From Streptomyces sp. WM6386 (GTDB lineage: Bacteria; Actinomycetota; Actinomycetes; Streptomycetales; Streptomycetaceae): a DNA stretch of 64,000 nucleotides. This document shows positions 5,141 to 63,027 of the stretch, in pieces. The stretch is taken from NCBI RefSeq assembly GCF_000972385.1, contig NZ_JXTE01000056.1:1-64000 (forward strand), in the 5' to 3' direction. The notes beneath the pieces were generated by a model, which was not told the DNA's origin, made no database searches, and worked only from the letters and a program-made list of their open reading frames with translations. Numbering within the stretch: position 1 is the stretch's first letter; each line of letters begins with the position of its first letter. Position numbers and translations under genes: made by a program.

Positions 5141-6151
5141 ATGACGGCACCATTGCACGAGCCGACCGCGGAAGCGGCCCCGAGCGCGGCCGAAGAAGCG
5201 GCGGTTATCAGCGCCGACGCCAAGGCCGTACAGGGGCGTTCCCTGGGACGGATCGCCTGGGAGCGCCTGAAGCGGGACAAACTGGCGCTCGCGGGCGGCA
5301 TTGTCGTGCTCTTCCTCATCGTCGTCGCTCTGCTCGCGCCGGTGATCACCAGCCTGTACGGGCAGGACCCGAACACGTACAACGACAAAGACCTGATCGA
5401 TCCGCTGTTCGGCACCCCCAAGGGGTCCTTCGGTGGCGTCAGCGGCGACCACTGGCTGGGTGTCGAGCCGGTGAACGGCCGGGACATCTTCGCCCGGGTC
5501 CTCTACGGCGCCCGCATCTCCCTGCTCGTCGGCTTCCTGTCCGCGATCGTCGCCGTCGTCATCGGCACGGTCCTGGGCATCCTGGCCGGCTTCTTCGGCG
5601 GCTGGATCGACTCGGCCATCAGCCGGGTCATGGACGGTCTGCTGGCCTTCCCGCAGCTGCTCTTCATCATCGCGCTGGTCTCGGTCATGCCGAACGAGAT
5701 GCTGGGTCTGACCGGCACCGACGTGCGCCTGTTCGTGATGATCCTGGTCATCGGCTTCTTCGGCTGGCCCTACATCGGACGCGTGGTGCGCGGCCAGACG
5801 CTCTCGCTGCGCGAGCGCGAATACGTCGAGGCGGCCCGCTCGCTCGGCGCCGGGCGGTTCTACATCCTGTTCAAGGAACTGCTGCCCAACCTGGTCGCGC
5901 CGATCATCGTCTACACGACGATGATGATCCCCACCAACATCCTCACCGAGGCGGCGCTCAGCTTCCTGGGCGTGGGCGTCAAGCCGCCCACGGCCTCCTG
6001 GGGGCAGATGCTCTCGAACGCGATCGACTACTACAAGTCGGACCCCACGTACATGGTGGTCCCCGGTGTAGCGATCTTCATCACCGTTCTGGCCTTCAAC
6101 CTCTTCGGCGACGGCGTGCGTGACGCGCTGGACCCGAAGGGTTCCCGCTGA
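5141..6151 (+). CDS. Oligopeptide-type ABC transporter permease (OppC/DppC-like)
   Basis: Inner-membrane permease of a peptide/opine/nickel-family importer, 336 aa. A cytosolic N-terminal stretch of about 45 residues precedes the first membrane segment LALAGGIVVLFLIVVALLA. Then comes the OppC-type N-terminal signature with HWLGVEPVNGRDIFARVLYG. The EAA loop EYVEAARSLGAGRFYILFKE lies near residues 228-247, followed by ALSFLGVGVKPPTASWG, typical of the C-type permease. It is the first gene of a five-gene operon in the order permease, binding protein, permease, ATPase, ATPase. That is the same layout I recall for bldK, though sequence identity to bldK was not tested. Confidence 0.92.
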   Translation: MTAPLHEPTAEAAPSAAEEAAVISADAKAVQGRSLGRIAWERLKRDKLALAGGIVVLFLIVVALLAPVITSLYGQDPNTYNDKDLIDPLFGTPKGSFGGVSGDHWLGVEPVNGRDIFARVLYGARISLLVGFLSAIVAVVIGTVLGILAGFFGGWIDSAISRVMDGLLAFPQLLFIIALVSVMPNEMLGLTGTDVRLFVMILVIGFFGWPYIGRVVRGQTLSLREREYVEAARSLGAGRFYILFKELLPNLVAPIIVYTTMMIPTNILTEAALSFLGVGVKPPTASWGQMLSNAIDYYKSDPTYMVVPGVAIFITVLAFNLFGDGVRDALDPKGSR

Positions 6152-6220
6152 ACTGCCGTACACAAAGCGTCCCGTGGCACCAACACGGGGTCTCTCATCA
6201 AATCCGGAGGATCCGAGATC

Positions 6221-8020
6221 GTGACTACCCAACGCACCTCAGGGCGGCGGAAGCAGGCGTTTGCCGCTGTCGCCGCGGTCGCCGCGCTGCTGACCACGGC
6301 GGCGTGCGGCGGCGGCGGTGATGACGGCGACGACGGCGGCAACAGCGCGGGCGCGGCCGGCTTCAACGCCGCGAACAACAAGGTCGCCCAGGCCTCGCTG
6401 GCCAAGAAGGGCGGCGAGCTGAAGTTCGCCGGTGCCCAGGACGCCGACTCGTGGGACACCACGCGTGGCTACTACGGCTTCATGTGGAACTTCGCGCGCT
6501 ACTACAGCCGTCAGCTCGTGACGGGTGCCGCCGCGCCGGGCGAGAAGGGCACCGAGCTCACGCCGGACCTCGCCAGCGGTCTCGCCAAGGTCTCCGACGA
6601 CGGCAAGACCTACACGTACACCCTGCGTGACGGCATCACGTGGGAGGACGGCAAGCCGATCACGTCCAAGGACGTCAAGTACGGCATCGAGCGCGTCTGG
6701 GCGCAGGACGTGCTGTCCGGCGGCCCGGTGTACCTGAAGGACGTCCTCGACCCCAAGGGCGAGTACAAGGGCCCGTACAAGGACACCTCCGCGGACAAGC
6801 TGGGTCTGAAGGCGATCGAGACGCCGGACGACAAGACCGTCGTCTTCAAGCTGCCCGAGGCCAACGCCGACTTCCAGGAGATCCTCGCCCTGGTCTCGGC
6901 CTCCCCGGTCCGCCAGGACAAGGACACCAAGTCCAAGTACGGCCTGAAGCCGTTCTCCTCCGGCCCGTACAAGTTCCAGTCGTACAGCCCGGGCAAGGAC
7001 CTGGTCCTGGTCCGCAACGACAAGTGGGACCAGGCCTCGGACCCGATCCGCAAGGCGTACCCGGACAAGATCTCGGTCAAGTTCTTCTCGAACGCCAACG
7101 ACCTGGACGCCCGTCTGCTCGCCGGTGACTACGACCTGGACATCAACCAGACCGGTCTGTCCCCGCAGGGCCGCACCAGCGCCCTCCAGGAGCACAAGGC
7201 CAACCTGGACAACCCGGTCTCCGGCTACATCCGTTACGCGGTCTTCCCGCAGACGGTGAAGCCGTTCGACAACGAGCACTGCCGCAAGGCCGTGATCTAC
7301 GGTGCCGACCACGTCTCGCTGCAGACCGCGCGCGGTGGCCCGGTCGCCGGTGGTGACATCGGCACCAACATGCTCCCGCCGACCGTTCCGGGTTCCGAGG
7401 GCCAGTCCTACGACCCGTACGAGCTCGCCGGTGCCAACAAGAACGGCAACGTCGCCAAGGCCAAGGAAGAGCTGAAGGCCTGCGGTCAGCCGAACGGCTT
7501 CAAGACCACCATCGCGGTGCGTAACAACAAGCCGGTCGAGGTGGCCACCGCCGAGTCCCTCCAGGCCTCGCTGAAGAAGATCGGCATCTCCGTCGACATC
7601 GAGCAGTACGACGGCTCGCAGACCTCCGGCATCATCGGCAGCCCCTCGAACGTGAAGAAGAAGGGCTTCGGCATCATCATCATGGGCTGGGGCGCGGACT
7701 TCCCGTCCGTCCAGGGCTTCGGTCTGCCGCTGTGGGATGGCAAGTACATCCTGGAGAGCGGTAACAACAACTTCGCGATGATCGACGACAAGAAGATCAA
7801 CGGTCTGTTCGACACCTACGTGAAGACGCAGGGTGACGCGGAGAAGCTGCAGCTCGCCAAGGACATCAACCACGCGGTGATGGACGGTGGCTACTACCTG
7901 CCGTTCGTCTTCGAGAAGTTCGTGAACTGGCGCGGTGACCGCCTGGCCAACGTCTACACGTCGGACAACTACAGCGGCATGTACGACTTCGTCAACCTCG
8001 GTCTGAAGTCCTCGAAGTAA
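6221..8020 (+). CDS. ABC transporter substrate-binding lipoprotein (SBP family 5)
   Basis: Extracellular solute-binding lipoprotein of 599 aa that should capture peptides or similar ligands for the adjacent permeases. The N terminus has basic residues, a hydrophobic core and a lipobox TTAAC with the lipidated cysteine at about residue 29, followed by a Gly/Asp-rich linker. The mature part has family-5 features: ELTPDLASGLAKVSDDGKTY, YTLRDGITWEDGKPITSKDV and WGADFPSVQGFG. GTG 6221 has CGGAGG 10 bases upstream. It has many Lys AAG and Asn AAC codons with C/G third positions, consistent with high expression. It lies between the two permease genes. Confidence 0.93.
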   Translation: MTTQRTSGRRKQAFAAVAAVAALLTTAACGGGGDDGDDGGNSAGAAGFNAANNKVAQASLAKKGGELKFAGAQDADSWDTTRGYYGFMWNFARYYSRQLVTGAAAPGEKGTELTPDLASGLAKVSDDGKTYTYTLRDGITWEDGKPITSKDVKYGIERVWAQDVLSGGPVYLKDVLDPKGEYKGPYKDTSADKLGLKAIETPDDKTVVFKLPEANADFQEILALVSASPVRQDKDTKSKYGLKPFSSGPYKFQSYSPGKDLVLVRNDKWDQASDPIRKAYPDKISVKFFSNANDLDARLLAGDYDLDINQTGLSPQGRTSALQEHKANLDNPVSGYIRYAVFPQTVKPFDNEHCRKAVIYGADHVSLQTARGGPVAGGDIGTNMLPPTVPGSEGQSYDPYELAGANKNGNVAKAKEELKACGQPNGFKTTIAVRNNKPVEVATAESLQASLKKIGISVDIEQYDGSQTSGIIGSPSNVKKKGFGIIIMGWGADFPSVQGFGLPLWDGKYILESGNNNFAMIDDKKINGLFDTYVKTQGDAEKLQLAKDINHAVMDGGYYLPFVFEKFVNWRGDRLANVYTSDNYSGMYDFVNLGLKSSK

Positions 8021-8076
8021 TCCCGGCACACCCGCCGAACGGCACGAAAGGCAGGTGAAGGCCGGCGACGTGTGAT

Positions 8077-8109
8077 CGCGGGCCATCGGAAGACCTCCGG
8101 TGGCCCGCG
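8077..8109 (+). terminator. Strong stem-loop inside the Opp operon, after the binding-protein gene
   Basis: CGCGGGCCATCGGA pairs with TCCGGTGGCCCGCG over 14 bp (one G-U) with a 5-base loop AGACC. No T run follows. It sits 57 bases after the binding-protein stop and 21 bases before the next permease start. It is therefore better seen as a 3'-end stabiliser or partial terminator that keeps binding-protein mRNA in excess than as an operon end. Confidence 0.7.
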
Positions 8110-8130
8110 GTCCGCGGCGGGCCGAGAGCT

Positions 8131-9129
8131 GTGCTCGCTTACCTCATCAGGCGGCTGTTTGCCGCCGCAGTGATGCTCGTGGTCATCATCATGGTGGTCT
8201 TCGGCATCTTCTTCCTCGTCCCCAAGTGGGCGGGTGTCGACGTCGCCCTGAGCTTCGTGGGCAAGCAGGCCGACCCCGCCGCTGTCGAGGGCGTGCGGCA
8301 GAAGCTGGGACTGGGCGACCCGATCTACGCTCAGGTCTGGGAGTTCTTCAAGGGCATCTTCGCGGGTCGCACCTATGCGGGCGGCGGCGACGTCATCCAC
8401 TGCTCCGCGCCGTGCTTCGGCTACTCCTTCCGCAGCGAGCAGGCCGTCTGGCCGGTGCTGACCGACCGCTTCCCGGTGACCCTGGGGCTCGCGCTCGGTG
8501 CCGCACTGCTGTGGCTGATCCTCGGCGTCTCGGCGGGTGTGCTCTCCGCGCTCAAGCGGGGAAGCCTCTGGGACCGCGGGGCGATGGTCGTCGCCCTCGC
8601 GGGTGTCTCCCTCCCGATCTACTTCACCGGTCTGCTGAGCCTGGCGATCTTCTCCTACAGCCTGGGCTGGATCGAGGGCGAGTACGTGCCCCTCGAGGAC
8701 AGCTTCACCGGCTGGCTCGGCGGCATGATCCTGCCCTGGATCACCCTGGCCTTCCTCTACGCCGCGATGTACGCCCGGATCACCCGCGCCACCATGCTGG
8801 AGATCCTCGGCGAGGACTACATCAGAACCGCGCGCGCCAAGGGCCTCAAGGAACAGGTCGTCATCGGCAAGCACGCCATGCGCTCCACGATGACGCCCAT
8901 CCTGACCATGCTCGGTATGGACCTCGGCGCCCTCATCGGCGGCGCGATCCTGACCGAGACCACGTTCAGCCTCCCGGGCCTCGGCCAGGCGGTGCTGAAC
9001 GGCATCAAGAACCAGGACCTGCCCATCATTCTGGGCGTCACCCTGATCACTTCCGTAGCCGTGCTGATCGCCAACCTCGTGGTGGACGTCCTGTACGCCG
9101 TGATCGACCCCCGAGTGAGGCTCGCATGA
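8131..9129 (+). CDS. Oligopeptide-type ABC transporter permease (OppB/DppB-like)
   Basis: B-type permease, 332 aa, starting MLAYLIRRLFAAAVMLVVII, the classic OppB N terminus with an immediate membrane segment. A periplasmic insertion of roughly residues 45-105 contains QKLGLGDPIYAQVWEFFKG. The EAA loop region reads LGEDYIRTARAKGLKEQVV, followed by AMRSTMTPILTMLGMDLGAL and ETTFSLPGLGQAVLNGIKNQD. Six membrane segments are expected. GTG 8131 is the first plausible start but has only a weak GAGAG site. The stop overlaps the next ATG by 4 bases (ATGA), implying translational coupling to the ATPase gene. Confidence 0.93.
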   Translation: MLAYLIRRLFAAAVMLVVIIMVVFGIFFLVPKWAGVDVALSFVGKQADPAAVEGVRQKLGLGDPIYAQVWEFFKGIFAGRTYAGGGDVIHCSAPCFGYSFRSEQAVWPVLTDRFPVTLGLALGAALLWLILGVSAGVLSALKRGSLWDRGAMVVALAGVSLPIYFTGLLSLAIFSYSLGWIEGEYVPLEDSFTGWLGGMILPWITLAFLYAAMYARITRATMLEILGEDYIRTARAKGLKEQVVIGKHAMRSTMTPILTMLGMDLGALIGGAILTETTFSLPGLGQAVLNGIKNQDLPIILGVTLITSVAVLIANLVVDVLYAVIDPRVRLA

Positions 9130-10223
9130 CCGAACTCAGCAAGAGCGGAGCGGCCGTGGGCGAGCCCACCCCCGCTACGCCCGCGCCGACCGCCTTCCTG
9201 GAAGTGCGCGACCTGAAGGTGCACTTCCCGACCGACGACGGTCTGGTCAAGTCCGTCGACGGGCTCAGCTTCCAGCTGGAGAAGGGCAAGACCCTCGGCA
9301 TCGTGGGCGAGTCCGGCTCCGGCAAGTCGGTGACCTCGCTCGGCATCATGGGCCTGCACACCGCCGGCCAGTACGGCAAGCGCAAGGCGCAGATCTCCGG
9401 CGAGATCTGGCTGGACGGCACCGAGCTGCTCACCGCCGACCCGGACCACGTGCGCAAGCTGCGCGGCCGTGACATGGCGATGATCTTCCAGGACCCGCTG
9501 TCCGCGCTGCACCCGTACTACACGATCGGCCAGCAGATCGTGGAGGCGTACCGCATCCACCACAAGGTGGACAAGAAGACCGCCAAGCGCCGTGCCGTGG
9601 AGATGCTCGACCGTGTCGGCATCCCGCAGCCGGACAAGCGGGTGGACAGCTACCCGCACGAGTTCTCCGGCGGTATGCGCCAGCGCGCGATGATCGCGAT
9701 GTCGCTGGTCAACAACCCCGAACTGCTCATCGCGGACGAGCCGACGACCGCCCTGGACGTGACCGTCCAGGCGCAGATCCTCGACCTGATCCGGGATCTG
9801 CAGAAGGAGTTCGGCTCCGCGGTCATCATCATCACCCACGACCTGGGCGTCGTCGCCGAGCTCGCCGACGACATCCTGGTGATGTACGGCGGCCGGTGCG
9901 TCGAGCGCGGTCCGGCGGAGAAGGTGTTCTACGAGCCCCGCCACCCCTACACCTGGGGTCTGCTCGGCTCGATGCCGCGCCTGGACCGCGACCAGCAGGA
10001 GCGCCTGATCCCGGTGAAGGGCTCCCCGCCCTCGCTGATCAACATCCCGTCCGGCTGCGCCTTCAACCCGCGCTGCCCGTACGCGGACATCCCGAAGGAC
10101 GACGTCACCCGCACGGTCCGCCCCGAGCTGTCCGAGGTGGGCAGCCAGCACTGGGCCGCCTGCCACATGTCGCAGGAGCAGCGGGAGCGTATCTGGATCG
10201 AAGAGATTGCGCCGAAGCTGTGA
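9126..10223 (+). CDS. Oligopeptide-type ABC transporter ATP-binding protein (OppD-like)
   Basis: Cytoplasmic ATPase subunit, 365 aa. Walker A is GESGSGKS, the signature is FSGGMRQR and Walker B is [12 protein letters not shown], with the switch histidine in ITHDLGVV. The C-terminal oligopeptide extension carries CAFNPRCPY and a later WAACHM. The third cysteine usually seen in this four-cysteine extension is absent here (replaced in the ADIPKDD stretch). The 4-base overlaps with the genes on both sides point to coupled translation in the operon. Confidence 0.94.
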
Positions 10224-11467
10224 GCGAGGACAAAGTGAGCATCCCTGCGCAGAGCGAAGGCACGGTGATCACCAAGGGCGACGCCGCCCCCGGTGAGACC
10301 CTGCTGAAGGTGACCGGGCTCCAGAAACACTTCCCGATCAAGAAGGGCCTGCTCCAGCGGCAGGTCGGCGCGGTGCGCGCGGTCGACGGCATCGACTTCG
10401 AGGTCAAGTCCGGCGAGACCCTCGGTGTCGTGGGCGAGTCGGGCTGCGGCAAGTCGACGATGGGCCGGCTGATCACCCGGCTGCTCGAACCGACCGCCGG
10501 CACCGTCGAGTTCGAGGGCAAGGACATCACCCACCTCGGGGTGGGCGGCATGCGTCCGCTGCGCCGCGATGTGCAGATGATCTTCCAGGACCCGTACTCG
10601 TCGCTGAACCCGCGCCACACCATCGGCACGATCATCGGCGCCCCCTTCAAGCTCCAGGGCGTCACGCCCGAGGGCGGCATCAAGGCGGAGGTCCAGCGGC
10701 TGCTGTCGGTGGTCGGTCTCAACCCCGAGCACTACAACCGCTACCCGCACGAGTTCTCCGGCGGTCAGCGTCAGCGCATCGGCATCGCCCGCGCGCTCGC
10801 GCTCAACCCGAAGCTCGTGGTGGCCGACGAGCCGGTCTCCGCGCTGGACGTGTCGATCCAGGCCCAGGTGGTGAACCTGCTGGACGACCTTCAGCAGGAG
10901 CTCGGTCTGACGTATGTGATCATCGCGCACGACCTCTCGGTCGTCCGGCACGTCTCGGACCGGATCGCGGTGATGTACCTCGGCAAGATCGTCGAGCTGG
11001 CGGACCGCGAGTCGCTGTACAGGGCGCCGATGCACCCGTACACCAAGGCGCTCATGTCTGCGGTGCCGATCCCGGACCCGCGGCGCAGGAACGCCAAGAG
11101 CGAGCGCATCCTGCTCAAGGGCGACGTGCCCTCGCCGATCTCCCCGCCGAGCGGCTGCCGCTTCCACACCCGGTGCTGGAAGGCGACGCAGATCTGCAAG
11201 ACGACCGAGCCGAAGCTCATCGAGCTCAAGCCCGGTCAGCAGGTCGCCTGCCACCACCCGGAGAACTTCGAGGACCAGGCCCCGCAGGACACCGTCCTGC
11301 TGACGGTCGCCAAGGAGGCGGCCGAGCTGGTCGCGGACGAGGTGCTCGCGGAGTCGGCGGAGACTTCGGCGGCGGTGGCGGCGGAGGTCGCCGAGACCGC
11401 CGCCGAGGAGACGGAAGAGCCCGAAGCTCCTTCCGAAGAGCCTGAAGCTCCTTCCAAGGAGAAGTAA
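10220..11467 (+). CDS. Oligopeptide-type ABC transporter ATP-binding protein (OppF-like) with acidic tail
   Basis: Second ATPase subunit, about 415 aa. It shows GESGCGKS (Walker A), FSGGQRQR (signature) and [12 protein letters not shown] (Walker B). The intact four-cysteine C-terminal extension contains [14 protein letters not shown] and VACHH. Beyond it is an unusual tail of about 55 residues rich in Ala and Glu, ending with the repeat [20 protein letters not shown] 10220 overlaps the previous stop by 4 bases. An in-frame GTG at 10235 preceded by GAGGA is an alternative start. It is the last gene of the operon, followed 12 bases later by a terminator. Confidence 0.93.
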
Positions 11468-54747: not shown

Positions 54748-56277
54748 TCACACCAGCGACTTCTCCGGCTCCGGAGCCTCCTCGGGCCGGCGCACCTCGA
54801 CCCCCCGCAGCATCACCGCCGCCAGCACCGCCGCCCCCGCGAGAACCACCGCCCCCGCGATCGACGCCCCCTGCATCCCGTTGGTGAACGCCTCCCGGGC
54901 CACGGTCGCCAGTCCGGGCACCTGATCGGCGACCGCCAGCGCTCCGCCCAGCGTCTCGTGGGCCACGTCGGGCGCGGAGGCCGGGATGTCGTGGCGGTAG
55001 ACGGCCGTACCGATGGAGCCGAGGATCGCCATCCCCAGCGCGCCGCCGAACTCCGAGCCCGTCTCCATCAGGGAGGACGCGGTGCCGGCCCGCTCGACCG
55101 GGGCGGTGCCCATGGCGAGGTCCATGATCTGGGACATCACGGTGACGCCGCCGACCGCGAGGACGGCGCAGGAGACCAGCACCAGCCACATCGAGTCCGT
55201 ACCGGCCGACGCCAGCAGCGCGAAGCCGCACGCGGAGATCGCGAAACCGGCGGTGATGACGTGGGCGCGGTTGACGCCCTTCTGGACCAGAGCGGCCGCG
55301 ATCGGCGCCGCGGCCCCGATCGGCACCGACGGCAGCAGTGCCCACAGGGCCGACTCCAGCGCGCTCTTGCCGAGCACCGACTGCAGGTACTGCGTGGTGA
55401 AGTAGGCCGACCCCATGATCCCGAACGCCGAGACGAGGTTCAGGGCGACGGAGGGTGCGAAGCCGCGGCCGCGGAACAGGGCCGGGTCGATCATCGGTGA
55501 GGCCGTGGTGCGCTGGCGGTGGACGAAGAGGGCCGCGAAGAGCAGACCGACGGTGATCGAGACGACGTAGCGGACGTTCCAGCCCTCCGAGGGGATCTCC
55601 TTGAGGCCGTAGATCACGGGGAGCACGGCGGCCATCGACAGCGGGACGCTCAGCCAGTCGAAGCGGCCGGGGGAGGTGTTCCTCGACTCCGGGAGCAGCA
55701 TCGGGCCGAGGAGCAGCAGCAGGGCCATCGCGGGCAGGTTGACCAGGAAGACCGAGCCCCACCAGAAGTGCTCGACCAGCACTCCGCTCATCACCGAGCC
55801 GAGTGCGATCCCGGCCGTCATCACGCCGGACCACAGGCCGATCGCCTTCGCGCGCTGGCCGGGGTCGGTGAACATCGTGCGCAGCAGGGCCATCGTCGAC
55901 GGCATCAGGGTCGCGCCGCCGATGCCGAGGACCGCGCGGGCGGCGATCAGGGTCTCGGCGCTGTTCGCGTACGCCGCCACCAGCGAGGCGGCGCCGAAGG
56001 CGGCGGCGCCGATCAGCAGGAGCCTGCGGTGGCCGATGCGGTCGCCGAGCGAGCCCATCGTCATCAGCAGGCCGGCCAGCACGAACGCGTAGATGTCGAA
56101 GATCCACAGCTGCTGGGTGCCGCTGGGCTCCAGGTCCGCGCTGATCGACGGGATCGCGAAGTAGAGGACGGAGACGTCCATCGAGACCAGGAGCAGCGGA
56201 AGCATCAGGACGGTGAGGGCAGTCCATTCACGGCGACCGGCGAGGGTGCCGGCGGGAGTGCTCGTCGGGTTCGTCAT
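54748..56277 (-). CDS. MFS drug exporter (DHA2, EmrB/QacA-like)
   Basis: A 509 aa exporter with about 14 membrane helices. Features include LLVSMDVSVLYFAIPSISAD (helix 1, motif D1-like), the motif A loop GSLGDRIGHRRLLLIGA and ARAVLGIGGATLMPSTMALL. The C-terminal motif region reads ERAGTASSLMETGSEFGGAL. These match multidrug efflux of the QacA type. ATG 56277 has TATAGT 7 bases upstream and TAGACA 17 bases before that, so the mRNA is probably leaderless. The adjacent divergent TetR is its likely repressor through the repeats in the gap. Confidence 0.92.
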   Translation of the reverse strand: MTNPTSTPAGTLAGRREWTALTVLMLPLLLVSMDVSVLYFAIPSISADLEPSGTQQLWIFDIYAFVLAGLLMTMGSLGDRIGHRRLLLIGAAAFGAASLVAAYANSAETLIAARAVLGIGGATLMPSTMALLRTMFTDPGQRAKAIGLWSGVMTAGIALGSVMSGVLVEHFWWGSVFLVNLPAMALLLLLGPMLLPESRNTSPGRFDWLSVPLSMAAVLPVIYGLKEIPSEGWNVRYVVSITVGLLFAALFVHRQRTTASPMIDPALFRGRGFAPSVALNLVSAFGIMGSAYFTTQYLQSVLGKSALESALWALLPSVPIGAAAPIAAALVQKGVNRAHVITAGFAISACGFALLASAGTDSMWLVLVSCAVLAVGGVTVMSQIMDLAMGTAPVERAGTASSLMETGSEFGGALGMAILGSIGTAVYRHDIPASAPDVAHETLGGALAVADQVPGLATVAREAFTNGMQGASIAGAVVLAGAAVLAAVMLRGVEVRRPEEAPEPEKSLV

Positions 56278-56284
56278 GACGGCG

Positions 56285-56347
56285 ACTATACGTACGTCTT
56301 AAACGCTTGTCTATGACGCTTGTATAAATCGCTTGTCTAGATAGGGT
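56285..56347. promoter_or_regulatory. Overlapping divergent promoters with three 13-bp direct repeats
   Basis: Minus strand: TAGACA (56308-56313), a 17-base spacer and TATAGT (56285-56290) serve the MFS gene. Plus strand: TTGTAT (56320-56325), 16 bases and TAGGGT (56342-56347) serve the TetR gene. CGCTTGT repeats with exact 13-base spacing start at 56304, 56317 and 56330 (units CGCTTGTCTATGA, CGCTTGTATAAAT, CGCTTGTCTAGAT). They cover both -35 regions. The TetR protein probably binds here and represses both genes. Confidence 0.72.
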
Positions 56348-56353
56348 GAGCGC

Positions 56354-56932
56354 ATGGGACACCGTGAGGATCTGCTCGAAGGCGCCAAGCGCTGCCTGCT
56401 GGCCAAGGGCTTCGTGCGCACGACGGCGCGCGACATCGTCAAGGAGTCGGGGACCAACCTCGCCTCGATCGGCTACCACTACGGCTCGAAGGACACGCTG
56501 CTGGCGGAGGCGTATGTGGCCCTGGCCGAGGGGATGGGGGACGCCTTCGAGGGGGACGGGAGCGCCAGCGCCGAGCCGGGTTCCCTGGAGCGGTTCCAGG
56601 AGGTGTGGTCGAACATCATCGCCACCATGCGGGAGCCCGGTTCGCTCTGGCACCTCAGCATGGAGATCGTGGTCATGGGCGACCAGCTGCCCGAGGTGCG
56701 CGACCATCTGGCGCGGGCCCAGCGCGAAGCCGGGCGCGGGCTCATCCCCATGCTCATGGGCGGGCGTGAGGAGGATGTCTCGGACGAGACCGCGGACACC
56801 CTCGGCATGTTCTATGTGACGCTGATGACGGGTCTCATCGCGCAGTGGCAGTTCGACCCGAACACCGCGCCCGGCGCGGAGCAGCTCGCCGAAGGGCTGC
56901 GCCAGGTGATCGCCGGGGTCAAGAAGAGCTGA
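56354..56932 (+). CDS. TetR-family regulator
   Basis: A 192 aa regulator. The HTH reads EDLLEGAKRCLLAKGFVRTT, then ARDIVKESGTNLASIGYHYG. The ligand-binding half contains FQEVWSNIIATMREPGSLWH and ends TLMTGLIAQWQFDPNTAPG. It most resembles regulators paired with drug exporters. ATG 56354 lies six bases after TAGGGT with no ribosome site, so the mRNA is probably leaderless. It is divergent from the MFS exporter, and its 3' end overlaps the convergent ABC ATPase gene by 14 bases. Confidence 0.9.
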   Translation: MGHREDLLEGAKRCLLAKGFVRTTARDIVKESGTNLASIGYHYGSKDTLLAEAYVALAEGMGDAFEGDGSASAEPGSLERFQEVWSNIIATMREPGSLWHLSMEIVVMGDQLPEVRDHLARAQREAGRGLIPMLMGGREEDVSDETADTLGMFYVTLMTGLIAQWQFDPNTAPGAEQLAEGLRQVIAGVKKS

Positions 56933-57599
56933 TCCGCCCGTCCCGCATCTCCAGGGCGCGGTCCGCGAAGTGCCGTACGACCGCCCGGTCGTGGCAGATG
57001 AACAGATAGCCGAGACCCAGCTCGTCCTGGAGGTCGGCCAACAGGTTCAGCACCCCGGCCCGCACCGACGGGTCCAGCGCCGACACCGGCTCGTCCAGCA
57101 CCAGAAGGCGTGGCTCGGAGGCCAACGCCCGGGCGATCCCCGCGCGTTGGCACTGGCCGCCGGAGAGCTCGTGCGGATACCGGTCGCCGTACGACGGGTC
57201 GAGGCCGACCCGGTCGAGGAGTTCGGCCACCCGGGCAGGGCCGGCCGTGGCGGCCCAGCGGCCCTGGACCTTCAGCGGTTCCGCGACCGCGTCCCGGATG
57301 CGATGGCGGGGGCTGAGGGAGCCGTAGGGGTCCTGGAAGACGGGCTGCATGCGCGGGCGGAGAGGGCGGAGTTCGCGCTCCGTCATGGCCGTCAACTCCC
57401 GGCCCTCGAAGCGCACTTCGCCGGAGTCAGGGCGGCGCAGCTGAAGCACCGCCAGCGCGGTGGAGGACTTTCCGCAGCCGGAGGGGCCGTTGAGAGCGAG
57501 GGTCTCGCCGGCCTCCAGGGAGAAGCCGACACGGTCCACCGCGGTCACGGCACCGTGGCGGACGACGAGGGCGCGGACGTCGAGAAGGGGTGTGCTCAC
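56919..57599 (-). CDS. ABC transporter ATP-binding protein, short OppF/NikE type
   Basis: A 226 aa ATPase with Walker A GPSGCGKSS, Q-loop PVFQDPYGSLSPRH, signature LSGGQCQRAG, Walker [13 protein letters not shown] and switch ICHDRAVV. The signature has Cys where Arg is usual (SGGQRQR). It lacks the C-terminal oligopeptide extension of long OppF proteins and in length matches NikE/CntF-like subunits. GTG 57599 overlaps the preceding gene by 4 bases. It is the last gene of the fused-permease importer operon. Confidence 0.9.
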   Translation of the reverse strand: MSTPLLDVRALVVRHGAVTAVDRVGFSLEAGETLALNGPSGCGKSSTALAVLQLRRPDSGEVRFEGRELTAMTERELRPLRPRMQPVFQDPYGSLSPRHRIRDAVAEPLKVQGRWAATAGPARVAELLDRVGLDPSYGDRYPHELSGGQCQRAGIARALASEPRLLVLDEPVSALDPSVRAGVLNLLADLQDELGLGYLFICHDRAVVRHFADRALEMRDGRISSS

Positions 57600-58516
57600 A
57601 CTCTCTCCCAGTGGTGGCAGGAGACCAACCGCCCGTCCACCCGTCGCGGTTCAGGCTCCTCGCGGCGACAGGAGTCGGTCGCGAGCGGACAGCGCGGGGC
57701 GAAGGCGCAGCCCGGCGGAAGCGCTCCCGGGGCCGGGGGTGTGCCGGGGAGGACGGGAAGGCGGCGGCCCCGGGCGTGCTGCGGGAGGGACGCCAGCAGG
57801 CCCGCCGTGTACGGGGCCCGCGGACGGGCCAGTACCTCCTGCGCCGGGCCGAGTTCGGTCAGTCGACCGGCGTACATGACCAGCGCGCGGTCCGCGTGCC
57901 GCCGTACGACGTCCAGGTCGTGCGTGACCAGGACGAGCGCGGCGCCGACCGCCTCCCGTTGCTCGGCCAGGACCCGGAGCACCTGCTCGCGGCGTTCCTC
58001 GTCGAGGGCGGTGGTGGGTTCGTCGGCGACCAGGATGTCGGGTTCGTTGATCGTGGCCATCGCGACGACCGCACGCTGGCGCATACCGCCCGAGAACTCG
58101 TGCGGATACGACCGTGCCCGGCGCGCGGCATCCGGGATGCCCACCCGGTCGAGTGCCGCGATCGCGCGCGCCCGGGCCTCCTTGCGGGAGACGCGGGCCA
58201 CCGACCTTACGGAGGCCGCGAGTTGGTCGCCCACCGGATGTACGGGGGAGAGGGCGGACAGGGCGTCCTGGGGGACCAGGGCGATGCGGCTCCCGCGCTC
58301 GGCGGAGAGGTCCGGCCGGACGGTCCCTGTCGCCGTCGCGTCCTTCGGCAGCATTCCCAGCAGCGCCCGCGCGGTCAGGGACTTGCCCGCGCCCGACTCG
58401 CCGACGATCGCCAGCACTTCGCGGGGACGGATGTCGAAGGACAGCCCGCGTACGGCCTCGACGCCGTCGAAGGCGATCCGCAGATCGTGTACCGACAGCA
58501 GTGCTTCAGACTCCAA
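57596..58516 (-). CDS. ABC transporter ATP-binding protein, OppD/NikD type
   Basis: A 306 aa ATPase: Walker A GESGAGKSL, signature [12 protein letters not shown], Walker [13 protein letters not shown] and switch VTHDLDVV. The C-terminal extension keeps four cysteines (PPGCAFAPRCPLATDSC, then VSCHHWE). The start is taken as TTG 58516, with GGGAGG 5 bases upstream and an 11-base overlap with the permease gene; no ATG or GTG gives a full-length N terminus. It is coupled by GTGA overlap to the second ATPase. Confidence 0.88.
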   Translation of the reverse strand: MESEALLSVHDLRIAFDGVEAVRGLSFDIRPREVLAIVGESGAGKSLTARALLGMLPKDATATGTVRPDLSAERGSRIALVPQDALSALSPVHPVGDQLAASVRSVARVSRKEARARAIAALDRVGIPDAARRARSYPHEFSGGMRQRAVVAMATINEPDILVADEPTTALDEERREQVLRVLAEQREAVGAALVLVTHDLDVVRRHADRALVMYAGRLTELGPAQEVLARPRAPYTAGLLASLPQHARGRRLPVLPGTPPAPGALPPGCAFAPRCPLATDSCRREEPEPRRVDGRLVSCHHWERV

Positions 58517-60245
58517 CGGGGGCCTCCCTCACGGCTCGCCGGCCCTTCGTGACGTTCCGGCCCTGCGCGTACGACGCCCCCGACACCGCCAGCCCCGCCA
58601 GCAGGGCCAGCGCCACAGCCGGGGCGAGGGCTGCCCAGGGGGCGCGTTCGACATAGGCGCGGGACTCGTCGAGCAGCAGGCCCCACTCCGGGGCGGGCGG
58701 CTGGGCGCCCAGGCCCAGGAAGCCCAGCGAGGCCAGGGCGAGCGCGATGCCGGGCAGCCGCAGCAGGGCGTGCCGGGCGACGGGAGCGGCCACCGAGGGC
58801 AGGACGTGCCGGGTCAGGATCCACAAGGGCGGTGCGCCGATGGCGCGTTGGGCCATCAGGAAGGAGGACGCCCGTACCTCCTGCACCAGCGCCGCCGCAT
58901 GCGCGGCCAGCGGCGGCCACGAGATCAGGGCGACCGCGAGAGCCGCACCGCCCGTGCCGGGTCCGGCCACCGCGGCGACCAGGATGCCGACGATCACCGG
59001 GGGCAGGGCGTTGGCGATGTCCGCCGCGCCCGCCGCGACACCGGGCAGGAAACCGAGCGCCAGCGCGACCAGCAGGCTCAGCAGACAGACGGCGGCGGCC
59101 GTGCCGACCGTGGAGGCGGCGCCGTGCCCGAGCCGGGCCAGGACGTCACGGCCGAGGCCGTCGGTGCCGAGCGGATGCGACCAGGTGGGAGAGGCCAGCC
59201 GGTTCGCGGTGTCGATCGCGTACGGGTCGCGCAGCAGACCCCAGCCGATCGCCACGGCGAGGACGGCGAACAGGGTCGACGGGATCGCCGGGTGGGTACG
59301 GACCGGCCGGGCCGGCGGCAGGGTGAGTGAGGCGTCCCGCAGGGCCGGACCCAGCAGCCGGCGCCGGGTGAGCGCGGACAACGCCCCCACGGCCAGCCCG
59401 AGCAGCAGCAGGGCGAGCACCGCACCCTGGAGAAGCGGCAGGTCCTGCGACTTGGCGGCCCCCAGCGCCGTACGCCCGATCCCCGGCACCGCGAACACCG
59501 TCTCCACGGCGACCGCGCCCCCGGTGAGCCCGACGGCGGCCATCCCGAACTGCGGGACGAGAGGCGGCAGTACGCGCCGTAGGGCGGCCGCGGAGACCCG
59601 GGCCCTGCCGACCCCGGCCCCGCGCCACAGCTCCACCCACCGCTCGTCGAGCACGGCGGGCAGCGCGTCCGCGACCAGCCGCCCGAGCAGCCCGCCCGCG
59701 GGGACGCCGAGGGCGAGGGCGGGCAGGACCAGGTACGCCGGACCCTGCCAGCCGGAGGTCGGCAGCCAGCCCAGCCACACCCCGCAGACCAGCAACGCGA
59801 CGGTGGCCAGCAGGAATTCGGGCACGGCGGCCAGCATCGCCGCGAAGGCCCCGGCCGACCTGCGCCCCCGTACCAGCACGGGCGCGACCAGCGCACCCGC
59901 GAGCAGCACCGCGACGGCGAAGGCCGCGCCCATCAGCGCCAGCGACACCTGGAGCCCGGACACGACGGACGGCAGCACGTCGGTACCCGACACCCACGAG
60001 GTTCCGAGGTCCCCGTGCAGCAGATCGGACGCCCAACTCCCCAGCAGCGAAAGGGGACCCGCGTCGAGGCCGAGATCCTGTCGTACGGCGTCCAGGGCCT
60101 CCTTCGTCGGCTCCTGCTCGGCGGAACGGGCGCGCAGGACGGTGAGCGCCGGGTCCCTGCCGGAGAGCCAGGGGAGCAGACCGACGGCGGTCACGACCCC
60201 GACCAGACACAGGACCCGGGTCACCCCGGCCGCGGTCGGCCTCAC
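58506..60245 (-). CDS. Fused ABC permease (OppB-like plus OppC-like domains in one chain)
   Basis: A 579 aa membrane protein with two binding-protein-dependent permease domains. Residues 1-290 are B-type (DAVRQDLGLDAGPLSLLGSW, VETVFAVPGIGRTALGAAKS). Residues from about 310 are C-type (SHPLGTDGLGRDVLARLGHG, ALASLGFLGLGAQPPAPEWG). About twelve helices are expected. In most Opp/Nik importers these are separate genes. GTG 60245 overlaps the binding-protein stop by 4 bases. The fusion is continuous, with no sign of a frameshift. Confidence 0.9.
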   Translation of the reverse strand: MRPTAAGVTRVLCLVGVVTAVGLLPWLSGRDPALTVLRARSAEQEPTKEALDAVRQDLGLDAGPLSLLGSWASDLLHGDLGTSWVSGTDVLPSVVSGLQVSLALMGAAFAVAVLLAGALVAPVLVRGRRSAGAFAAMLAAVPEFLLATVALLVCGVWLGWLPTSGWQGPAYLVLPALALGVPAGGLLGRLVADALPAVLDERWVELWRGAGVGRARVSAAALRRVLPPLVPQFGMAAVGLTGGAVAVETVFAVPGIGRTALGAAKSQDLPLLQGAVLALLLLGLAVGALSALTRRRLLGPALRDASLTLPPARPVRTHPAIPSTLFAVLAVAIGWGLLRDPYAIDTANRLASPTWSHPLGTDGLGRDVLARLGHGAASTVGTAAAVCLLSLLVALALGFLPGVAAGAADIANALPPVIVGILVAAVAGPGTGGAALAVALISWPPLAAHAAALVQEVRASSFLMAQRAIGAPPLWILTRHVLPSVAAPVARHALLRLPGIALALASLGFLGLGAQPPAPEWGLLLDESRAYVERAPWAALAPAVALALLAGLAVSGASYAQGRNVTKGRRAVREAPVGV

Positions 60246-61735
60246 TTGACGTACGTGTCGGCCGTGACCAGCTCACGCTCGCGCGGGTCGTGCGCGGCGT
60301 CCACGACGTCGGCGGCGTCGCCCTGGATCACGCGCTCGTGCAGCATCGGGACGGCCGCGTCGGTGCCGAGCACGGCGGCCTCGGCCGCGATGACGGCCTT
60401 GCGCCGGGCCTCGCCGGTCTCGGTCCCGCCGGCCTTCTTCAGGGCGGCGTCCACCTGGGCGTCGGCGAGCTGGGAGATGTTGAAGGAGCCGTCGGAGGCG
60501 AAGTCGCTGTAGAGGTAGGCGGCCGGGTCGCCGGAGTCGAGGACGGTCGCGCGGGAGAGGATGAAGGCGTCGAACTCGCCGGCGAGGGCGTCGGACTCGA
60601 TGTTGGCGTACTCGCGGACGTCGAGCTTCACCTTGAACCCGGCGTTCTGGAGCTGCTGTTGGAGGGTGGCGGCGACCTCGGGGAGTTCGGCGCGGTCGGT
60701 GAAGGTGCCGATGGTGACGGTCCGACCGTTCGGCTCGGCGGCGGTGGTGCGCCGCAGGCTCGACCGCAGTTCGGCGGCCCACGGCAGCGCCGGCCCGAGC
60801 AGCCCCTCGGCGACATCCGCCCGCCCCTCGTACACGCCCTTCACGATCGATTCGGCGTCGATCGCCTCGCGGGCGGCGGCACGCAGGGCGGCGTCCTTGA
60901 AGACGCCCTTCTCGGTGTTGAGGTAGAGGGTGTTGGTGCGCGGCATCGGGACCTCGGTGATCAGGTCCTCGTCCAGGAGCGCGGCCTGGGAGACGGGGAC
61001 CGCCTCGACGATGTCGGCCTCACCGCTGCGAAGGGCGGCGGCCCGGGCGGTGCCGTCGGGCACGAACGTCACGTCGATACCGGGGGACTTGGCCTTGCCG
61101 CCCCAGTAGGCGTCGTAGCGGTCGAGGGTGGCGGAGGAGGTGCCGTCGACCTCGGTGAGCTCGAAGGGGCCGGTGCCGGCGCCGACGGGGTTCACCGTCT
61201 TCCCGCGGTAGGCCTTCGCGGCGAGGATCGACAGCTGGGGCGAGCTGAGCCGCTGCGGGACGAGGGGGTCCTTGTCGGCGGTGGTGACGGTGACGGTGTC
61301 CGAGTCCTTCGCCTTCGCGGTCAGTTCGACGCCGTCGAGGATGCGGGGCTTGGGGGAGGCGGTGGCGGCGGTGGTGAGTGAGCGTACGACGGCCTCGGCG
61401 TCGAGCTTCGTGCCGTCGTGGAAGGTGACGCCGTCGCGTATCTCGAACGTCCAGGTCCTGCCGGACTGCTGCCACTCGGTGGCGAGCGCGGGCTCGGCGT
61501 CCCCGTCGGCGTCGAGCTTCACGAGGGTCTCCGCCGTCGACCAGCGGGACAGCTTGAACGCGTCGTCGGAGAGCGGGGAGAGGGCCGAGCGCGGGGGCTG
61601 CATCATCGCGACCCGGACGCGCCTGCCGTCACCGTCGCCGTCGCCCTCACCCTCGGCGGAGGCACCGGAGAAACAGCCGGTGAGCAGAGTGGACGCCACG
61701 GCGGCCGTGAACAGGTGACGGGCGGGCAGGCGCAC
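60242..61735 (-). CDS. ABC transporter substrate-binding lipoprotein (SBP family 5, NikA/CntA/OppA class)
   Basis: A 497 aa lipoprotein. The signal peptide ends in the lipobox LLTGC, with the cysteine at residue 21, followed by an acidic Gly/Asp linker. The mature domain has ATEWQQSGRTWTFEIRDGVT, FHDGTKLDAEAVVRSL and VGAGTGPFELTEVDG, typical of the family that binds peptides, nickel or metallophores. CCGGAGG precedes GTG 61735. A Zur-box-like palindrome lies 54 bases upstream. It is the first importer gene and is followed by the fused permease and two ATPases with overlapping frames. Confidence 0.9.
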   Translation of the reverse strand: MRLPARHLFTAAVASTLLTGCFSGASAEGEGDGDGDGRRVRVAMMQPPRSALSPLSDDAFKLSRWSTAETLVKLDADGDAEPALATEWQQSGRTWTFEIRDGVTFHDGTKLDAEAVVRSLTTAATASPKPRILDGVELTAKAKDSDTVTVTTADKDPLVPQRLSSPQLSILAAKAYRGKTVNPVGAGTGPFELTEVDGTSSATLDRYDAYWGGKAKSPGIDVTFVPDGTARAAALRSGEADIVEAVPVSQAALLDEDLITEVPMPRTNTLYLNTEKGVFKDAALRAAAREAIDAESIVKGVYEGRADVAEGLLGPALPWAAELRSSLRRTTAAEPNGRTVTIGTFTDRAELPEVAATLQQQLQNAGFKVKLDVREYANIESDALAGEFDAFILSRATVLDSGDPAAYLYSDFASDGSFNISQLADAQVDAALKKAGGTETGEARRKAVIAAEAAVLGTDAAVPMLHERVIQGDAADVVDAAHDPRERELVTADTYVK

Positions 61736-61789
61736 GGAACCCTCCGGGTAAAGGGGTGGTCAAGGGTGAGTGCGCCGACGCTAACACGA

Positions 61790-61804
61790 TGACAATCGTT
61801 TTCA
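61790..61804 (-). promoter_or_regulatory. Zur-box-like operator upstream of the importer operon
   Basis: TGACAATCGTTTTCA (plus strand) matches the actinobacterial Zur consensus I recall, TGAAAATGATTTTCA, at 12 of 15 positions, and keeps TGA...TTTTCA arms. On the minus strand it is followed by TAGCGT, a TANNNT -10 box (about 61778-61783), so a bound repressor would cover the -35 region. It overlaps the last codons of the upstream MFS gene. Confidence 0.6.
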
Positions 61805-62980
61805 GTAATCAGTGTGACGGAGATCGCGCAGCGCCGGGACCAGCGCGACCAGCATCAGTGCGGCCGTCGCCGCGAACGCCCATGGATAGCCGGTCAGTCC
61901 GGCGAGGACGCCGAAGCCCGCCGCGCCGACGCCCATGCCACCGTCGTAGGCGAGATTCCACAGTGCGCTGACCGTGCCGTACGAAGAGGCGGAGACCCGG
62001 GCGTACATGAAGGTCAGGGTGGCGTTCTGGGCGATGCCGAAGCCGGCCCCGAACAGCGCCGATCCCGCGACGACGGCGACCGGGCTGCCGGTCGCGGCGG
62101 TGAGCAGCACGCCCGCCGCAGACAGGAGCAGGCCGGGCAGGACGAGTCCGGCGCTGCCGTGCCGGTCGCCGTGCCGGCCCGCCAGCCAGCGGGTGACGGT
62201 CGCGGCCGCGGGCTGGGCGAAAAGGGCCGACGCGATCACTGCGGAGGACGCCGAACCGGCCGCCAGCGGCAGGAAGGTGACCAGGATTCCGGCGGCCGTC
62301 GCGGTGGCGCCGAAGATGAGAACCGGGCGCAGCAGGGCGCCGGTGCGCAGCCCGCGGACCACACCGACCGGCCGCTCGGCGCTCGCGCCGTGGTCCGGCA
62401 GACCGAACACCGAGACGATCGCGGCGAGTGCGGCAGCGCCGCCGACGGCCGCGACGGTCCCGTATCCCGCGTGCTCCGTCAGCCACAGCCCGAGCGGCAG
62501 CGCGACCAGCGACGGCACCCCGGACACCACGCCCACCACGGCAAGGCCCTCGCCCCGGCGCTCGGCCGGGATCAGCGTCGCGGTCAGGGCGCCGCCCGCG
62601 ACGATGGTGAGCGCGAAGCCCAGTCCGCGCACCAGACACACGGCCACGATCCACCCGATGTCCCGCGAGGCGGTCAGCGCCAGAGCAGGGGCGCCGAGCA
62701 GGAACAGACCGGCGATCAGGACCACCCGGTATCCGAAACGTGCGACCAGCCGGGGAGTGACCAGTTCACCGAGGACCGTGGAGAGCATCAGGGCACCGGT
62801 GGCGAGGCCCGCCGCACCCCCGCCGCCCGACTCGGCCGCGTAGGCGGGTACGACCGACAGCAGCAGGAAGAAGCTGACGGTCGCCCCGATCAGGCTCACG
62901 AAACGGAGCAGCAGGGGCCGGGTGAGCAGGGGCGGACGTGAACCGGTCGTCCGCGCGGGGTGCTTGGCCGAAGTCGTCAT
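61802..62980 (-). CDS. MFS transporter (DHA1-like, 12 helices)
   Basis: A 392 aa transporter. The first helix (LLLRFVSLIGATVSFFLLLS) is followed by LATGALMLSTVLGELVTPRL and VARFGYRVVLIAG (motif A-like), ALTIVAGGALTATLIPAERR, and a second half after a loop at about residue 195 (GALLRPVLIFGATATAAG). The substrate is unknown. ATG 62980 has TACCGT 7 bases upstream and no ribosome site, so a leaderless mRNA is likely. It is divergent from a MocR regulator, its probable controller. It ends 66 bases before the importer operon and could read through into it. Confidence 0.9.
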   Translation of the reverse strand: MTTSAKHPARTTGSRPPLLTRPLLLRFVSLIGATVSFFLLLSVVPAYAAESGGGGAAGLATGALMLSTVLGELVTPRLVARFGYRVVLIAGLFLLGAPALALTASRDIGWIVAVCLVRGLGFALTIVAGGALTATLIPAERRGEGLAVVGVVSGVPSLVALPLGLWLTEHAGYGTVAAVGGAAALAAIVSVFGLPDHGASAERPVGVVRGLRTGALLRPVLIFGATATAAGILVTFLPLAAGSASSAVIASALFAQPAAATVTRWLAGRHGDRHGSAGLVLPGLLLSAAGVLLTAATGSPVAVVAGSALFGAGFGIAQNATLTFMYARVSASSYGTVSALWNLAYDGGMGVGAAGFGVLAGLTGYPWAFAATAALMLVALVPALRDLRHTDY

Positions 62981-63027
62981 ACCGTCGACGGTAGGGTCGC
63001 ACCGGCCCTCCGCTAAGCTCCAATTCC
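62980..63027. promoter_or_regulatory. Divergent MFS/MocR promoter region with a 14-bp palindrome
   Basis: The 47-base gap holds TACCGT for the MFS gene (minus strand, 62988-62993) and TAAGCT for the MocR gene (63014-63019), each 7-8 bases from its ATG. The perfect palindrome TACCGTCGACGGTA (62980-62993) overlaps the MFS start and -10 box and is a candidate MocR operator. Confidence 0.55.

Follow-up and report, generated by a model that had tools for sequence, protein, structure and literature searches.

A predicted importer of chelated zinc with a fused NikB-NikC permease behind a putative Zur box in Streptomyces sp. WM6386

Results

Gene organization

We analysed a stretch of 64,000 nucleotides (the window) from the 9,215,882-base (9.2 Mb) genome of Streptomyces sp. 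WM6386, a soil bacterium. On its minus strand, at 56919-61735, lies an operon of four genes with overlapping frames that encodes an ABC importer of the family-5 peptide/nickel type, preceded by a predicted binding site for Zur. The genes were assigned from open reading frames (ORFs), Pfam and NCBIfam.

61790-61804, minus strand: predicted Zur box TGACAATCGTTTTCA (minus-strand reading TGAAAACGATTGTCA), 54 nt ahead of the start codon of the binding-protein gene, identified by motif and conservation
61778-61786, minus strand: putative extended -10 element TGTTAGCGT (for which most related loci have TGCTACGGT), its promoter function suggested by conservation right after the box in 79 aligned loci
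61740-61748, minus strand: ribosome binding site, GGAGGG-type, read from the sequence
60242-61735, minus strand: substrate-binding protein, a family-5 lipoprotein, NikA/Opp5A-like, with lipobox LTGC and invariant C21
58506-60245, minus strand: permease with NikB-like and NikC-like halves fused in one chain of 579 residues
57596-58516, minus strand: ATPase, OppD/NikD-type, with an oligo_HPY tail
56919-57599, minus strand: short ATPase, NikE-type, without the oligo_HPY tail

Successive frames overlap by 4, 11 and 4 nt. All domains scored above the Pfam gathering cut-offs: SBP_bac_5 in the binding protein (222.4 bits), BPD_transp_1 in two separate stretches of the permease frame, ABC_tran with oligo_HPY in the first ATPase, and ABC_tran alone in the second. 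This is the domain set of a family-5 peptide/nickel ABC transporter. ORFs, Pfam and NCBIfam thus agree on the overlapping four-gene operon with a fused permease that an earlier note on this DNA had described. Residues 11-294 of the permease match Opp2B/NikB and residues 339-549 match Opp2C/NikC; separate NikB and NikC genes are absent from the window locus, where the single ORF takes their place. The closest NCBIfam models are Opp5A/NikA for the binding protein and Opp2B/Opp2C for the permease. The nickel-importer equivalog cut-offs were missed by the binding protein (213.9 against 600) and by the two permease halves (164.5 against 300 and 150.7 against 350), and none of the four proteins attained any NCBIfam cut-off (for each ATPase, among the best 25 matches). 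These unmet cut-offs mark the four proteins as related to the nickel system, not as members of it.

The Zur box within the genome

The Zur motif of S. coelicolor derived from chromatin immunoprecipitation (ChIP) is tGaNNatSatNNtCa (PMC5472717). TGACAATCGTTTTCA agrees with it at 10 of the 11 specified positions. The box proposed in the earlier note is present at 61790-61804; the score of 12 of 15 given there referred to the consensus used in that note. When the 15-mer was searched with up to 2 mismatches, the 9,215,882 bases yielded 6 places and the reversed control none. Besides the window, there were two at a znuA locus recognized by eye (C745), two at C46 and a single one within a coding frame (C379). 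The C46 pair (71905-71959) lies between a znuA-like gene, recognized by eye, and a divergent gene for a NicO nickel/cobalt permease, assigned by Pfam, which hints that Zur may govern a second metal route.

A palindrome search with TGAAAATSATTTTCA at up to 2 mismatches also returned 6 places, all at promoters. They were C46, the window, C745, C157 (an operon with a major facilitator superfamily (MFS) gene and a family-5 importer), C290 (ribosomal paralogues, by eye, and CobW, by Pfam) and C423 (a surface-protein cluster, by eye). At up to 3 mismatches there were 21 places, compared with 8 for the reversed control. Of the 15 places with exactly 3 mismatches, 14 were inspected by eye (all but C41:2423), and only the C1 operon and the C46 pair (C46:71945) were recognized as metal-related; a zincophore cluster behind weaker Zur-like boxes is unsupported by these 14 places. 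The published motif alone, at up to 1 mismatch, occurred at 129 genome places against 34 for the reversed control and is therefore weak taken alone. A Zur-like gene, recognized by eye without a family scan, immediately follows znuB. Among the 14 family-5 binding-protein genes of the genome, only that of the window operon has a strict-threshold box within 1,500 bp upstream. At the C1 copy the box has 3 mismatches, and that of the C157 copy lies farther upstream, ahead of the MFS gene.

Conservation of the box and operon

Two overlapping, non-independent sets of related loci were examined. A genus search gave 30 loci, 28 with 74-100% identity in the binding protein (the window's own included) and two with 56-57%. 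A named-genome scan gave 560 loci, of which the best 80 were kept; 79 are titled Streptomyces and one "Actinobacteria bacterium OK074". Upstream boxes that depart from the published motif by no more than 1 mismatch were found in 30/30 loci of the first set and, within 200 bp of the match start, in 79/80 of the second, the 80th having 2 mismatches. As background, 25 of 19,040 random 200-bp stretches of those loci carried such a box. In the box-anchored alignment of 79 loci (one without 30 bp upstream was left out), 11 of the 15 box columns were invariant and TGCTACGGT was conserved after the box, while conservation of columns -30 to -4 was only 33-57%. These sharp limits indicate a bounded site and not shared ancestry alone.

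The own-genome matches, the conservation and the bounded site together make control of the operon by Zur, as the earlier note proposed, highly probable on sequence grounds. A box for another regulator of the Fur family (Nur, FurA or CatR) was considered because the 7-1-7 boxes of this family resemble one another. We regard it as most improbable, since the nearest matches in the genome lie at znuA-type loci, the box fits the ChIP-derived Zur motif, and no TTGCAA half-site of Nur was noticed in the operon promoter in a look by eye, made without a scan.

Neighbours were surveyed in the 80 loci by tblastn (E ≤ 1e-20). The binding protein and the fused permease were present in 80/80 and the first ATPase in 76/80; the second was also found in 76/80, five of these being cross-matches of 38-39% at contig ends.

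The binding protein

The family profile of the binding protein, compared with PDB entries, scored 195 bits against a nickel binder of Bacillus halodurans and 174 against Staphylococcus aureus NikA, and lower against DppA (118) and OppA (117). By profile, the protein is thus supported as closer to nickel/metallophore binders than to dipeptide binders. Its score against the CntA equivalog of NCBIfam was 76.1 bits, short of the cut-off of 800. The AlphaFold model had a mean pLDDT of 91.0, with residues 1-35 below 50. The top structural matches were a family-5 protein of B. anthracis, the B. halodurans nickel binder, YliB and S. aureus NikA.

An operon that imports peptides and is induced by zinc starvation for some other purpose, such as recovery of zinc-binding peptides or amino acids, would have the same superfamily on its side, together with the "peptide/nickel" annotation in public records and the dipeptide binders, which fall only a few Z units below the top matches of the model. 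The profile scores are higher for nickel/metallophore binders than for DppA and OppA, however, and the separate Opp/Dpp-type operon in the window lacks a Zur box within 1,500 bp of the binding-protein match (L220). We therefore judge a peptide importer quite improbable. The comparison of the binding protein with NikA, suggested in the earlier note, and with dipeptide binders was informative by profile but undiscriminating by fold.

Distant relatives and the partner MFS

The permease was searched at E ≤ 1e-60 across 296 class genomes and matched in 23 of them, from seven family labels, at 24 places; 16 places were compared. All 16 contain the binding protein and the fused permease; in one of them (G321) the match is interrupted by a stop codon. 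The ATPase genes are downstream in four, upstream in eight and were not found in four. In 15 of the 16 distant actinobacterial loci, an MdtH-like MFS gene, unlike the one adjacent to the window operon, lies in or near the operon (14 full, one partial). The earlier idea of an MFS partner thus holds for a different gene from the one it named.

In Halostreptopolyspora alba, an operon of the order ATPase-ATPase-MFS-binding protein-permease is divergent from a nicotianamine synthase (NAS) gene. The stretch from the ATPase start to the NAS domain contains two Zur boxes, which the longest possible NAS frame would overlap. In the second genome with both genes (G226), NAS and permease are about 190 kb apart; there a GNAT gene of the same family as the GNAT gene at C1 (36% identity) is convergent with NAS.

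Three further observations concern such loci. In 20/20 NAS loci of one actinobacterial family (L271-L290), NAS is preceded, at a distance of up to about 260 bp, by a palindrome near TGAACATGAGTCTCA (1 mismatch to the Zur motif). At L182 (1999-3984), a Zur-type box stands between a divergent FecCD-type importer, by eye, and ATPase-MFS-binding-protein-fused-permease genes. At L180 (10237-16091), the operon is adjoined by genes recognized by eye for an ArsR-type regulator, a P-type ATPase, the partner MFS and a surface protein, and the region looks like a zinc island.

Paralogues in WM6386

Parts of the system recur elsewhere in the genome. At C1 (L133, 6741-10419), a Zur-like box with 3 mismatches is accompanied by a GNAT gene, a binding protein (51%), a permease remnant lacking a central segment, and a partner-type MFS of 79% identity to the MFS of L190; the MdtH-like partner of the relatives is thus found here, behind a weaker Zur-like box. 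At C2 (L132, 5612-8946), a binding protein and fused permease without ATPases stand behind an iron-type box, 4 mismatches from the IdeR/DmdR consensus. A similar iron-type box precedes one locus (L261) of the 30 in a second clade of the binding protein. At C157 (L194, 1995-8128) is a second family-5 importer operon, with a Zur-like box CGATAATCATTTTCA followed by genes for an MFS protein, a binding protein, two permeases and two ATPases; this MFS is related to the partner family (34-42%).

Discussion

Predicted function and mechanism

The operon quite probably imports a metal chelate. Somewhat more guardedly, we consider it likely to be a zinc-starvation importer of zinc bound to a small chelator. 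With enough zinc in the cytoplasm, zinc-loaded Zur would occupy the box, which lies just upstream of the -10-like sequence, and would block RNA polymerase. When zinc falls, Zur would leave and the four genes, with their overlapping frames, would be made as one transcript. By analogy with the family, the lipoprotein would capture chelator-bound zinc outside the cell and pass it to the fused NikB-NikC channel, through which the two ATPases would drive import. A small metallophore of the amino-acid or aminopolycarboxylate type is the probable chelator; it may be made elsewhere in the genome, be taken from neighbours, or be a simple Zn-histidine-like complex. As a whole, the interpretation in the earlier note is partly supported.

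Several observations weigh against a zinc-chelate importer. Clear Zur boxes were found in only 5 of the 16 distant loci, and a strict box in only 11 of the 30 loci of the second clade. The paralogue with an iron-type box means that the cargo of this family need not be zinc. The MdtH-like partner MFS was found in 0/80 close loci. Fold comparison of the binding protein fails to separate metallophore from peptide binders. NAS occurs in 22 of the 296 class genomes and is shared with the fused permease in 2, against about 1.7 expected, so a genome-level link between the two was rejected. The 20 other NAS loci (13.5-19 kb each) gave no match to the fused permease, the partner MFS or GNAT. Finally, a check for NAS beyond the window, proposed in the earlier note, found none in the WM6386 genome and none in 150 Streptomyces genomes. 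A staphylopine-type dehydrogenase was likewise found in 0/150 Streptomyces, in a search whose positive control was also silent and which is thus uninformative. With no NAS found, an opine-type zincophore made by this genome was rejected as a candidate; an own zincophore of that kind is unlikely.

We also considered whether the operon could be a Nik-type system that takes up simple complexes of nickel, cobalt or zinc (with histidine or a similar ligand), under Zur but without a dedicated metallophore. No metallophore gene was found, the closest models are nickel systems, and structures of S. aureus NikA hold Ni-histidine/thiazolidine ligands, according to their PDB titles. The NicO permease beside the twin Zur-like boxes at C46 shows in addition that Zur-type boxes need not mean zinc alone. 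On the other hand, the equivalog cut-offs for NikA and NikBC are far off, and the MFS partner seen in the relatives, joined in one of them by NAS, is what a secreted chelator would lead one to expect. We hold such an importer to be unlikely.

A broader extension of the zinc-chelate reading is tentative and, in our view, rather doubtful. It would be a so far unnamed actinobacterial metallophore cycle, under Zur, that combines the fused NikB-NikC importer with an MFS exporter of the MdtH-like type and a GNAT acetyltransferase; the carrier would be nicotianamine-related in H. alba, and Streptomyces would use another chelator. With the same reserve, its parts might be scattered in WM6386: the importer in the window; a box, GNAT, second binding protein and MFS at C1; and a third binding-protein/permease pair at C2 that moved to iron control.

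Comparison with known systems

The staphylopine importer CntABCDF of S. aureus (with CntE and CntKLM) belongs to the same transporter class, and an MFS exporter partner and an NAS-type gene are seen in relatives of the window operon. Unlike Cnt, the window permeases are fused, the genome has no NAS, and the window clade has no MFS in the operon. S. aureus Opp5A (NikA)/Opp2BCDF and E. coli NikABCDE provide the nearest NCBIfam models and stand near the top of the PDB matches; the window operon differs from them in its fused NikB-NikC, its Zur-type box and its unmet equivalog cut-offs.

In Corynebacterium diphtheriae, two NikA/OppA-like ABC importers, DIP2162-2165 and DIP2125-2128, are repressed by zinc and Zur; one of them adjoins the nonribosomal peptide synthetase/polyketide synthase genes sidAB, and DIP2162-2165 is under double zinc/iron control (PMC6711530). 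They presumably correspond to the nik1 and nik2 loci, which are reported to sustain growth when zinc is scarce (PMC12445094). As described there, they resemble the window operon in being actinobacterial, NikA/OppA-like and Zur-linked, but have two separate permeases and one ATPase where the window has a fused permease and two ATPases. The division of zinc and iron control between the window and C2 copies recalls the double control of DIP2162-2165. In zinc-starved Paracoccus denitrificans, Ni/dipeptide ABC genes rose 7.7- to 16-fold, and the binding protein, permeases and ATPase of Pden1341-1344 12.6- to 16-fold under zinc depletion (PMC5387054); this is an alphaproteobacterium with two permease genes instead of a fused one. 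Actinobacterial opine-zincophore clusters with family-5-class importers have already been mapped (PMC7438024).

The Zur regulon of S. coelicolor has the same type of box. In WM6386, boxes of this type again precede its members znuACB, ribosomal paralogues, CobW and surface proteins. The accessible portion of one listing of that regulon names no family-5 importer (PMC6103462). We found no account of a family-5 importer under Zur control in Streptomyces in the literature within reach, which left out most subscription papers and all supplements. Importers of this kind are thus known in other bacteria, and the fused-permease version appears to be undescribed.

In Streptomyces, both sporulation and the production of antibiotics are influenced by how much zinc is available (PMC5472717).

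ZnuABC is the known zinc importer of Streptomyces, and we know of no identified uptake route in this genus for zincophores such as coelibactin or ethylenediaminedisuccinate (EDDS). With a candidate importer under probable Zur control and a clear site in its promoter, this question becomes testable, and many actinobacterial "peptide/nickel transporter" labels could be reassigned.

Neighbouring genes

Two further genes lie upstream of the operon, as the earlier note had stated (ORF, Pfam and NCBIfam).

61802-62980, minus strand: MFS gene, directly upstream of the binding-protein gene
from 63028, strand opposite to the operon: divergent MocR/PdxR-like gene

The MFS stop codon coincides with the start of the Zur box on the minus strand. 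In the 80 related loci this MFS is kept in 3 and is thus an incidental neighbour, so that its proposed role as paired exporter was ruled out; MocR, kept in 2, was dismissed as a component of the system. TetR, the downstream MFS and serA are kept in 53, 54 and 56 of the 80. The TetR gene is convergent with the operon and overlaps the last ATPase gene by 14 nt; at 54748-56932 it is divergent from a gene for an LfrA-like efflux MFS, with no sign of Zur control in this region. A separate, ordinary-looking Opp/Dpp operon occupies 5141-11467 of the window, with its binding-protein gene at 6221-8020.

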